DNA of 64,000 nucleotides from Candidatus Manganitrophus sp. (GTDB lineage Bacteria; Nitrospirota; Nitrospiria; SBBL01; Manganitrophaceae). Positions 56,927 to 61,042 of the stretch are shown here, piece after piece. The position numbers and the translations under genes were made by a program. The notes beneath the pieces are model-generated. The model worked only from the letters and a program-made list of their open reading frames with translations. It searched no databases and was not told the origin of the DNA. The DNA lies in assembly GCA_028865235.1 (NCBI GenBank), contig CP114561.1, positions 640,001 to 704,000 of the forward strand, written 5' to 3'. Every line of letters starts with the position of its first letter. The stretch's first letter is position 1.

Positions 56927-57831
56927 TCAGCTTGACTCACTTTTCAAGACGGATCGGAAAAACCGCTGACCTTGCGCCATCATCGTTTCGGAAAGCTCGG
57001 AGAATAAAATCCCGCCGATAATCAGCCCCCCTCCCAGCATCCCCCATATTCCCATCGTTTCCTGAAGAAAGAAATAACCCAAAGCGGCAGCCCAGAGCGG
57101 CTCGACGGTAAAGATCAGCGCGGCGCGGGTCGGCGTCGTGTCCCGCTGATAGCGGGTCTGAATATAACCGGTCACTACCGTCGCAAGAATCGCCGTGTAG
57201 CCGAGCGCGAAGAATGCCCCCTGCGTCGGCCTGAATACAGGCGGTTCGAAAAAGGGAGGAGAATCCAGCCGCAGACGGCGGGAAAGGATATCTGGAGGAA
57301 GGTCATCAGAAGAAAATCATATCGCCGGGTCGTCCAGTCGAGCAATACGATAAACAGGCCGAACACAATGGCGCAGAGCAGGGTGAGAAGATCTCCCCGG
57401 TTCAATCCTCCCCCGGAGGGATTCGTCAGGAACCAGAGACCGACGGAAACAACAATCACTCCCACGAGATTTCCCCATCTCGGACGCCGTTTCAAAATGA
57501 GCATTTGAAAAAGAGGGGTGAAAATGACCATCATGGTGGTGATGAAGGCCGACTTCGACGTCGTGGTCTCTTTTAAGCCGAGGGTCTGCAAGAGGAAGCC
57601 GGCGAAAATAAGAAACCCGAGAAAACACCCCCAGAAGATCGACTTTCGATCGGCACGGAGAAGCGCTTTCATGCAGAAAGGAAGAAGAACAAGCGTTGCC
57701 AGGGTAAACCGGATCGACACCATCAGAAGGGGGGAGAGATCGACCAGACCCTGTTTGATGATGACAAAGGTTCCACCCCAAATAAATGTCGTGGCAAAAA
57801 GAAACCACTCCGCCCGTCCTTTCGCCGTCAC
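56927..57831 (-). CDS. EamA/DMT-family permease (frameshifted)
   Basis: Ten-helix drug/metabolite transporter of ~301 residues. The first half has FATTFIWGGTFVIIKQGLVD and the second half has YQRDTTPTRAALIFTVEPLW and GYFFLQETMGIWGMLGGGLI. A shift near 57240 separates PFSNRLYSG from PVFRPTQGAFFALGYTAILA, after which the C-terminal EamA repeat is read. Substrate unknown, often amino acids or nucleotide sugars. Confidence 0.85.
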
Positions 57832-57867: not shown

Positions 57868-58524
57868 TTAGGAAAAGCGCGCATCGCGGATTCGGCTGAG
57901 GCTCTCTTCTTTGTGAACCCGCTCGTCATAGCCGATCTGACGAACCGCATCGGCCATCGACTTGAAATCCCCGAAGTCGGATTTAAACGCGCTTTCAAAG
58001 GGCTCCGACTCCAACTCCGGATGTTCTTGAACGTACCGCATATACTCATGCTCGGCATGGTCTTCGAACTGCGCATTCAATGCGTAGCTCATGGAGGGGC
58101 GAATGACATATAAAAACCAGCAAATATGATAATAGAAAAAAGCGATAATCTGAGGAATGATTCGATAGAGGAAAAAGTTCTCCCGAATCTGCAGACGATG
58201 TACCCACTCTTCCAAAATCAGAAGATGCCACTGCTCATTGTCCTGCTGAATTCGGCTCTCTTGGACCCGATCAAAAATCCTTCGCGCAAAATCGGCCTGC
58301 TTGTAAGTGTGGGTAATCGCGATATAAGCAATATGCTCCCACGCCTGATAAGGGACCCGGGCGATCACCTCGAGCACCTTAAATTTACTGAGGCTTCTCC
58401 CCTTCCCGTAAATCAGGTCCATCACCACAAAAAGGATCTTCGCGAGAAACCCATAAGGCAGCTTCTGAGCGGACAGGGTATTTGCTTGCTCTTTCCTCAG
58501 CTGCTCGGCAGTCAATCGTTCCAT
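57868..58524 (-). CDS. PTOX/AOX-like diiron quinol oxidase
   Basis: Membrane-bound di-iron quinol oxidase reducing oxygen to water without proton pumping. LEVIARVPYQAWEHIAYIA matches LETIARVPYF of plastid terminal oxidases; NEQWHLLILEE, FYYHICWFLYVIRPSMSYAL, FEDHAEHEYMRYV and GYDERVHKEES match the later helices. Likely iron ligands, numbering from a TTG three bases upstream: Glu98, His101, Glu155, Glu202, His205. The usual first-helix Glu (HMYE in PTOX) falls on Ile71; Glu64 is nearby. The ATG at 58524 follows GAGAGGGA by about 7 bases. It might protect redox state under changing oxygen supply. Confidence 0.82.
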   Translation of the reverse strand: MERLTAEQLRKEQANTLSAQKLPYGFLAKILFVVMDLIYGKGRSLSKFKVLEVIARVPYQAWEHIAYIAITHTYKQADFARRIFDRVQESRIQQDNEQWHLLILEEWVHRLQIRENFFLYRIIPQIIAFFYYHICWFLYVIRPSMSYALNAQFEDHAEHEYMRYVQEHPELESEPFESAFKSDFGDFKSMADAVRQIGYDERVHKEESLSRIRDARFS

Positions 58525-58660
58525 CAAACGTCCCTCTCAAACAAGCCGTTAAAATCAGGTCAATCGTTCCCATTATAATGCCGGAACGCTGAACGATCAA
58601 CCTCTCCCATCCGCATAATGGGAAGAGCCGGAGAAGACGAATGAAACAACCGAACAGAAT

Positions 58661-59779
58661 TTACGAAATGTTCAAAAGACGGCTCCTCCGAGGATCGATC
58701 AGGTCACTCAACGGGCTTTTGTAGCCGCCGAACTCTTGGATCTCCCTGAGCAGCGGAATATGCTCAATCGGTTCGTCGTCTTTTCTCTCCCATGAAAGGG
58801 TGCAGCGGGAGGTCGCCTGCTTCAGCGTCTCGATTAATGAGACACCCCCTTTCCATCCGGAGGCATCCGACGCCGAGCAGTGAAAGAGGACCCGTTTTTC
58901 CAGATCTGTCTTGTTGAAGAGGATCTCTTTGAGGGCCTCCGCCGACCAACGCCGGGGAGCATCAAGAACAATTCGGATCTGATTTCGCTCCGACGCGTTC
59001 TTGAGCAGGTGGAGTTGAATCGTCCCCTCTTCCAGCAATGAGCGAATCTGCTGCATCACCGTCCTCACCAACACCCCGTCAGGAAGCGAACTGATCGAGA
59101 GCCGGGTCCGGGCCCCCTCCATCTCTGTCTGGATGTCGGCCCTCAGGATCAGCTCCCCTTTTCCATCCGCGTAGAGCGCGCGAACGGCGGCATGTCCGCC
59201 GACCACCCCGCCGGAGGCGAAGTCGGGTCCCGGCAGAAACTCCATCAGCTCATCAAGCGGCATCTCCGGCGCTTGCCGGATCTGCTCGAAGGCGGTCCAA
59301 AGCTCTTCCAAATTATGCGGAGGGATCCGCGTTCCATCGGGCAAGCTCGCGCCGTTCAAAAGGGCGAGGGGAAGAAGCGGGGCTTTCCCCACCGGCATGA
59401 CGATGTGGGAAAAACGGGAGAGCCGAAGCTCGACATATTCGGGTCCCTGGGGGACCTCATCATGCGGATCACCATACATCCCGCGCAGCTCAAAATGGGG
59501 ATACCGACAGCGCCACGGAAGACCGAGCTGGAGGATCATCCGGTAAGCATATCCGAGGCTGTCCGGGGGATACGACTCCATCGGCTCGACGTAAGAGCTA
59601 AGGGCCTCGCAATCATATTCAAAGTCATTCTCGTCCATCTTCCAATCGTTGAGCGCCAAGACCTTGAGAATATCTTTCGCGTTAATCAAGGTCCGATCAT
59701 TCGGCGCTTCCGCCCGGCAGATGTCGATCAACCGCCGCTGAAGTGGGGTCAGCCCGTCTAAAAAGAGAAAATCATCCAT
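58661..59779 (-). CDS. Stand-alone divergent GyrA/ParC-like protein
   Basis: 372 residues aligning with the breakage-reunion domain of type IIA topoisomerase A subunits: DGLTPLQRRLIDI (~8-20), RYPHFELRGMYGD (~92-104), PEYVELRLSRF (~113-123), IPPHNLEELWTAFEQIRQAP (~152), LDELMEFLPGPDFASGG (~175-191) and the tower strands ILRADIQTEMEGARTRLSIS. Tyr115 aligns with the active-site Tyr, but the preceding Arg is Glu and the HPHGD loop reads YPPDSLG. No C-terminal pinwheel and no gyrB-like gene nearby. The AAAGGA site fixes the start. Confidence 0.7.
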   Translation of the reverse strand: MDDFLFLDGLTPLQRRLIDICRAEAPNDRTLINAKDILKVLALNDWKMDENDFEYDCEALSSYVEPMESYPPDSLGYAYRMILQLGLPWRCRYPHFELRGMYGDPHDEVPQGPEYVELRLSRFSHIVMPVGKAPLLPLALLNGASLPDGTRIPPHNLEELWTAFEQIRQAPEMPLDELMEFLPGPDFASGGVVGGHAAVRALYADGKGELILRADIQTEMEGARTRLSISSLPDGVLVRTVMQQIRSLLEEGTIQLHLLKNASERNQIRIVLDAPRRWSAEALKEILFNKTDLEKRVLFHCSASDASGWKGGVSLIETLKQATSRCTLSWERKDDEPIEHIPLLREIQEFGGYKSPLSDLIDPRRSRLLNIS

Positions 59780-59881
59780 GTCATTCCTTTCCGATAGAAG
59801 CGATTCCGCAAAAGGTTATTTTATAACACGGCTTTTGTCCTTGTCATGTTTTTTCTTCTTGGAGCGCGACGTTTTCCCCCT

Positions 59882-59910
59882 TTGAAGCGGAAGCCATGTT
59901 ATGGTATAAA
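59882..59910 (+). promoter_or_regulatory. Promoter of dus
   Basis: TTGAAG (59882-59887), 17 bp, TATAAA (59905-59910), 25 bp upstream of the GTG. Confidence 0.55.
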
Positions 59911-59935
59911 AGAACGGGTTATTCAGGAGCCAAAC

Positions 59936-61042
59936 GTGCATTTCTGGAACAACATCCCCAAACCGATCATCGCCCTCTCCCCCATGGACGGGGTGACCGA
60001 TCCCTGCTTTCGGCGGATCGTGGCGACCCACGGGAAACCCGACCTGATTGTGACCGAGTTCACCAGTGTGGAAGGAATCCTCCATGGCGCCGAGAGCGAG
60101 TTGGGGGGGTTGGTTTTCGATGAAATCGAGCGCCCCATTGTTGCTCAAATCTACGGCGCCAAACCGGAATCGTTCTTTCTGATCGCTCAGCTTGTCTGCG
60201 AGTTGGGATTCGACGGCCTCGACATCAACATGGGCTGTCCCGCCAAGGCGGTTTCGTCCAAGGGATGCGGGGCCGGGCTCATCGCCGATCCCCCCCGCGC
60301 GAAAGCGATTCTCCAGGCGGCCCGGCAAGGGATCGATGCCTGGGTGGCCGGCGGCGCGCTTCCGATCGTCGATCTTCACCCCAAAATCGGTGAATGGCTC
60401 ACCCGCAGAAAAGAGGCGGGACAGATCCCCCCTTCCGAGCGGCGTCCCCTCCCCGTTTCGGTCAAGACACGGATTGGCGTCCATCGCGTCGTCATCCAAG
60501 AGTGGGTCTCCCACCTGTTGGAAGAAAAACCGGCCGCCATCTCCATCCATGGCCGAACCCTGCACCAGGGCTATCGCGGTGCCGCCGACTGGAAGGCGAT
60601 CGCCGAAGCGGCCTCCATCGCGCGCGGCTCCGGCACATTGATCCTTGGAAACGGCGATATTCGATCGCTCAACGAGGCGGCTCAGCGCATTCGGGAAAGC
60701 GGCGTCGATGGGGTCCTCATCGGCCGGGCCGCCCTGGGAAATCCGTGGATCTTTCGAAAAAAGAGCCTTCTCCGCGAAGCACTCAGCCTTCACAACCTGG
60801 AACTCATCCCGGACGAGCCGGCCTCTCCCCTGGAGCGGCTGGAGGCGGCGCTGGAGCATGCCCGCCTCTTTCAAGAGAGCCGTCCTCTCTCCCGGTTTGC
60901 CGAGATGAGAAAACATCTCGGCTGGTACTGCAAGGGATTTCCCGGCGCAAGCCAGCTGCGAGAGAAGCTGGTCCGTGTCCGCAACGTCGATGAGGTCGAA
61001 GCGCTGCTCGCCCCCTTCCTGAGCGAAGTTTCATACCGATGA
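59936..61042 (+). CDS. dus: tRNA-dihydrouridine synthase
   Basis: FMN-dependent reduction of uridine in tRNA D-loops. It begins HFWNNIPKPIIALSPMDGVT, has LDINMGCPAKAVSSKGCGAG with the catalytic Cys, PVSVKTRIGVHR, ISIHGRTLHQGYRG and LILGNGDIRSL plus LIGRAALGNPWIF of the FMN site. GTG at 59936 is chosen from AGGAG seven bases upstream; the longer open frame lies within its promoter. ~368 residues. maf starts in its stop (ATGA). Confidence 0.92.
   Translation: MHFWNNIPKPIIALSPMDGVTDPCFRRIVATHGKPDLIVTEFTSVEGILHGAESELGGLVFDEIERPIVAQIYGAKPESFFLIAQLVCELGFDGLDINMGCPAKAVSSKGCGAGLIADPPRAKAILQAARQGIDAWVAGGALPIVDLHPKIGEWLTRRKEAGQIPPSERRPLPVSVKTRIGVHRVVIQEWVSHLLEEKPAAISIHGRTLHQGYRGAADWKAIAEAASIARGSGTLILGNGDIRSLNEAAQRIRESGVDGVLIGRAALGNPWIFRKKSLLREALSLHNLELIPDEPASPLERLEAALEHARLFQESRPLSRFAEMRKHLGWYCKGFPGASQLREKLVRVRNVDEVEALLAPFLSEVSYR

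Follow-up and report, generated by a model that had tools for sequence, protein, structure and literature searches.

A probable type IIA topoisomerase pseudo-enzyme family in the class Nitrospiria

A 64,000-nucleotide stretch of the genome of Candidatus Manganitrophus sp. (hereafter the window) encodes a 372-residue protein that is a member of the GyrA/ParC superfamily by descent, though it lacks every functional hallmark of GyrA/ParC that was tested. We regard it as one of a Nitrospiria family of type IIA topoisomerase pseudo-enzymes, here termed pseudo-GyrA: the superfamily is known, while the family itself is undescribed in the sources searched. Judging from the sequences, pseudo-GyrA is probably a catalytically dead paralogue of the A subunit, reduced to a winged-helix plus tower core that now serves as a protein- or ligand-binding module. 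Such a family would show a topoisomerase core recruited to another role. Few bacterial proteins are as conserved as GyrA and ParC, and we know of no other type IIA A-subunit family kept by selection after losing catalysis, DNA grip and partner interfaces. Searches of family libraries and of open-licence papers found no description of such a GyrA-derived family, in agreement with a first-pass annotation of the window, made from the sequence alone, which knew of none.

By sequence and predicted fold the window protein is a true homologue of GyrA/ParC. Pfam PF00521 matches pseudo-GyrA with E 8.9e-25, ParC and GyrA chains of the PDB match it with E 2e-22, and a profile of the family aligns with a GyrA/ParC profile over residues 8-300 with E 2.8e-38 (hhalign). 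The profile match begins at the GyrA motif DGLKPxxRR and stops short of the coiled coil, at position 331 of the GyrA profile. The curated cut-offs of the NCBIfam topoisomerase A-subunit models are not reached: PRK05561 scores 117 bits (E 8.9e-34) where 654 are required, another GyrA/ParC equivalog gives 99 bits against 902, and at most about one fifth of the required score is attained. An AlphaFold2 model of the window protein, based on the 17-row family alignment, has a pLDDT of 85.5 and a pTM of 0.83, and was matched by Foldseek with E 5.5e-23 and a TM-score of 0.71 over 351 columns. Every one of the best 50 Foldseek PDB matches is a gyrase or topoisomerase IV, with TM-scores of ~0.7 over ~350 columns. 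A second model, from the most distant branch of the family, has a pLDDT of 82.8 and the same kind of PDB matches. The relationship to GyrA/ParC proposed by the first-pass annotation is thus borne out, and a lack of structural match to GyrA, which it had named as the opposite outcome, is ruled out for the predicted model. Its description of a single-domain protein without a C-terminal domain holds in that the chain ends at 372 residues, but both winged-helix and tower regions remain, and the losses extend to the coiled coil of the C-gate.

Table 1. Features of the pseudo-GyrA gene and its neighbours (window positions unless a locus is given; residues are those of the window protein)
Feature	Position	Strand	Basis
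Pseudo-GyrA gene, intact frame, 372 aa, ATG start	58661..59779	-	ORF, homology, family, predicted fold, dN/dS
Ribosome-binding site GGAAAGGA directly 5' of the ATG	59780..59795	-	sequence read directly
Residues 8-18, remnant of GyrA DGLKPVHRR(I/V)L; Lys42 equivalent lost	59726..59758	-	alignment
Residues 49-75, once the DNA-recognition helix and HPHGD loop; acidic residues in place of KKSAR, no HPHGD	59555..59635	-	alignment, charge
Residues 103-119, former active site; GDxHD[ED]xPxGP, Glu114 in place of the catalytic Arg, Tyr115	59423..59473	-	family alignment
Residues 142-155, NG...IPPH; 3-residue deletion taking out the DNA-intercalating Ile	59315..59356	-	deleted in 17/17
Residues 157-300, tower domain, most conserved part (PGPDF etc.)	58880..59311	-	Pfam, PDB, hhalign
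Residues 351-370, conserved C-terminus GGYx[SN]PLxxLxDxR[RK][ST]x[IL]L	58670..58729	-	family alignment
Dihydrouridine synthase (Dus), divergent neighbour, context only	59846..61042	+	orthologue in L145
MobA-like neighbour	L146:8836-9780; also L147, L148, L149, L150, L151, L153		4-bp overlap

Residue losses were scored in 17 family members against 61 GyrA/ParC sequences, at positions invariant or nearly invariant in the latter, with E. coli numbering assigned by alignment. The roles of the GyrA residues and segments concerned, in DNA contact, GyrB docking, the C-gate and DNA wrapping, are established structural knowledge. The catalytic Arg121 equivalent is kept in none of the members (Glu in 15, Ala in one, Asp in one), and the position of Tyr122 holds Tyr in seven, Ser in seven, Leu in two and Gln in one. 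The first-pass annotation had read a Glu for the Arg ahead of Tyr115, an absent HPHGD loop and a retained Tyr amid lost catalytic surroundings. Both the Glu and the absence of the loop (His78, His80 and Asp82 are gone throughout the family) are confirmed. All members from the window's genus, the window protein included, have the Tyr, but its retention in only 7/17 of the family means that it is probably a leftover. The degeneration itself had been called correctly but understated. In an alignment with a ~20-residue insertion beside the recognition helix, which bears on the assignment of DNA contacts, the Lys42 equivalent has become Thr, Ser, Asn or Ile and that of Lys65 Asp, Glu or Ala, the Arg68 equivalent is lost, and the three residues of the GIAVGMAT loop that carry the DNA-intercalating Ile174 are deleted in all 17. 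The mean charge of the recognition-helix segment is -7.7 in pseudo-GyrA versus +2.0 in GyrA/ParC, the net charge over the homologous span is -16 versus -4.5, and the pI is 4.95 versus 6.21. Furthermore, pseudo-GyrA begins where the N-terminal arm that docks GyrA to GyrB ends, so that this arm is absent, and both the coiled-coil C-gate and the DNA-wrapping C-terminal beta-pinwheel are missing. The conserved C-terminus LxDxR[RK][ST]x[IL]L resembles the YGDxRRTEI that follows the coiled coil in GyrA; a weak hhalign match of the C-terminal slice (P 0.0094) is suggestive only of a remnant, which, if real, would mean that the C-gate was excised internally.

What the family shares with GyrA/ParC is ancestry, the predicted winged-helix plus tower fold and 43 of the 82 GyrA-invariant columns, at which the same majority residue is held. 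The kept residues include PGPDF, PxHN, NG, the RYP region and the Arg of YTExR, and R16 (GyrA R47) is retained in 16/16 scorable members. A further 43 positions are conserved within pseudo-GyrA and different or variable in GyrA. These are densest where the active site used to be (G103 D104 x H106 D107 [ED]108 x P110 x G112 P113), a pattern of changed function and not of decay.

A search of the window's genome and 97 relatives recovered 17 orthologues at 41-98% identity, all within the class Nitrospiria. Six belong to the window's genus (family f1), eight to two further families of its order (f3 and f5) and three to a family (f11) placed further away within the class; the window's own family, Manganitrophaceae, has been assigned to the order Ca. 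Troglogloeales (PMC9040806). A class sample of 247 genomes returned the identical 17 members, and a phylum sample of 296 genomes held no additional pseudo-GyrA lineage. No pseudo-GyrA stood above E 1e-42 in the phylum samples drawn for a deltaproteobacterial record (237 genomes), a planctomycete (246), Legionella (319), a Gemmatimonadetes record (200) and a record titled Gammaproteobacteria (298), the last two samples overlapping and hence representing the same phylum. That titled record (L043, VXNP01000118.1) groups with the Gemmatimonadetes record (L092) at full support in the GyrA tree, which, together with the overlap, indicates that its title is likely a misnomer. In a collection-wide scan GyrA proteins fill the matches listed, so rare members elsewhere are possible; among those listed, Candidatus Manganitrophaceae bacterium GW715_bin.13 carries a member at 92% identity.

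In the maximum-likelihood tree pseudo-GyrA forms a single clade (100/100) whose stem is very long, too long for an origin from GyrA to be told apart from one from ParC. The inner branching, with f11 outside f1 plus f5, matches that of the hosts' GyrA, and for this reason the family looks old and mostly vertically inherited. The absences in several families between the carriers may reflect loss, or one early transfer. Branch lengths give an estimated rate of evolution three to four times that of GyrA. Within the genus dN/dS is 0.07-0.12, and outside it, where measurable, 0.08-0.21; protein length is uniform across the four host families; pseudo-GyrA is under long-term purifying selection. The first-pass annotation had asked whether phylogeny would reveal an ancient conserved paralogue, and the single clade, its long stem, the 17 members and the selection on them answer in favour.

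Its further observation that no ATPase partner gene is present also holds beyond the window. A single GyrB C-terminal domain per genome was found in 37 of the 38 matching relatives, the remaining genome (G030) having a second partial match, and the single gyrB adjoins the normal gyrA. Hence, nothing points to an additional GyrB/ParE that could serve pseudo-GyrA. In the window's own genome gyrA (G000 contig 1, ~2271000-2274500, L197) is broken into several frames, and it is intact at 849 aa in the closely related genome G005; the breaks are probably assembly errors, so this genome provides no argument for gyrA loss.

Fold, family tree and residue losses together support the view that the protein is topoisomerase-derived and non-catalytic. 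We infer that pseudo-GyrA would be unable to cut or pass DNA and would no longer grip DNA in the manner of GyrA, and that the formerly DNA-facing surface, now acidic and conserved, may instead dock a protein or small ligand. In manganese-oxidising bacteria and their kin the protein probably serves another purpose now. As a guess, the likeliest class of partner would be the host's machinery for DNA topology or nucleic acids, gyrase foremost, with pseudo-GyrA as a non-enzymatic modulator; that gyrase itself is the partner is a plausible idea but rather doubtful. In its more specific form this proposal, close to the inhibitor or decoy suggested by the first-pass annotation, makes pseudo-GyrA a gyrase inhibitor or protector, either by presenting its acidic face as a DNA mimic at the DNA site of GyrA/GyrB or by standing in for one GyrA subunit of a mixed complex. 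The charge of the protein and of its recognition helix, the single type IIA enzyme of the hosts and the existence of acidic gyrase-binding proteins such as phage Igy are all consistent with such a role, which we nevertheless consider unlikely: pseudo-GyrA has neither of the interfaces, arm and C-gate, by which GyrA is held to its partners, its gene was seen neither linked nor fused to those of gyrase, and related hosts lacking pseudo-GyrA manage on gyrase alone, with no evident need for it. That the acidic paralogue mimics DNA, sits in the DNA gate of the one type IIA topoisomerase that the host possesses and so tunes supercoiling appears distinctly unlikely; if true, a topoisomerase would be controlled by a charge-inverted copy of itself in manganese-oxidising Nitrospirota. 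The protein offers a compact means of asking whether cells regulate gyrase with gyrase's own relative.

The known gyrase modulators (YacG, MurI, GyrI/SbmC, MfpA, the Qnr pentapeptide repeats and Igy) resemble pseudo-GyrA by analogy, in a possible role and in being non-catalytic and acidic, and to our knowledge none of them derives from GyrA. Topoisomerase folds have also been reused without their original activity in the meiotic break machinery, which contains non-catalytic topoisomerase relatives built on topo VI parts; these are derived from type IIB enzymes, whereas pseudo-GyrA is bacterial and derived from type IIA GyrA/ParC. A recent review (PMC10886550), searched by terms, yielded no GyrA-derived inhibitor; among the proteins it treats is phage Igy, an acidic gyrase-binding protein proposed to be a DNA mimic.

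Alternatively, pseudo-GyrA could be a new enzyme or ligand-binding protein in which GDxHD[ED]xPxGP forms a new site for a metal or nucleotide, possibly in concert with the nucleotidyltransferase-like protein encoded next to it in one family. The family-specific positions, among them D104, H106, D107, P110, G112 and P113, are compatible with such a site, as is the gene order in f5, where in 7/7 genomes a MobA-like gene related to NTP_transf_3 overlaps the pseudo-GyrA stop by 4 bp. However, the conserved loop could be structural, and the nucleotidyltransferase gene does not adjoin pseudo-GyrA in f1, f3 or f11. The neighbour has also lost its own signature motifs. MobA-like NTP transferases carry a glycine-rich loop and a metal-binding Asp in GDxP; the f5 protein (PF12804, 26.3 bits, just under the cut-off) is without the loop, has G[NH]IP for GDxP and, from its sequence, is apparently itself degenerate. 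Taken together, the enzyme reading is quite improbable. The same neighbour ends in a conserved stretch that holds two Cys, C[PS]x[ST]GxxC.

The DNA-binding protein suggested by the first-pass annotation, an architectural or regulatory factor still using the topoisomerase fold on DNA, can draw on the winged-helix fold retained in the predicted model and on the invariant R16. It is disfavoured, and we rate it as very unlikely, as most of the DNA-contacting Lys, Arg and His residues and the intercalating Ile (Lys42, Lys65, Arg68, His78, His80, Arg121 and Ile174) are lost or charge-reversed family-wide, several having become acidic. Pseudo-GyrA may bind DNA through a new surface. Finally, an ordinary or decaying A subunit (a fragment, a pseudogene, or an active protein with an undetected partner) could be argued from the Tyr of the window protein and its genus, and is given next to no chance by the Arg lost in 17/17, the Tyr lost in 10/17, the one GyrB, the low dN/dS and the uniform length.

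Several other origins were rejected. A broken gyrA fragment is ruled out by intact frames in 17 genomes with dN/dS near 0.1, and a hidden partner subunit by the one GyrB per genome. Searches of phage, plasmid and viral-contig sequences yielded only GyrA/ParC-like proteins at 24-28% identity, and the PHROGs search returned only phage topoisomerase II (1e-9) and no specific phage family; a phage- or plasmid-borne origin was rejected. No PADLOC match was obtained, and an anti-phage defence gene was likewise discarded.

The best reading remains a dead A-subunit paralogue serving as a binding module, and the gene neighbourhood, which differs between host families, points to no common function. In f1 and f5 most pseudo-GyrA genes stand back to back with a gene for dihydrouridine synthase, behind which comes a Maf gene, and in f11 a PilZ-domain gene lies downstream. 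A family-wide conserved operon was not found, only two arrangements recurring, namely the overlapping nucleotidyltransferase gene of f5 and dus in divergent orientation. Just downstream of pseudo-GyrA in the window is a small alternative-oxidase-like gene (57868-58527, minus strand) that was seen at this site in only three genomes of the genus and whose orthologue in L142 matches PF01786 with 7.5e-9. The EamA-type transporter gene at 56927-57831 (minus strand) is split by a frameshift into 218 plus 82 aa; it is a single 301-aa frame in the nearest relatives, and the split is probably an assembly indel.
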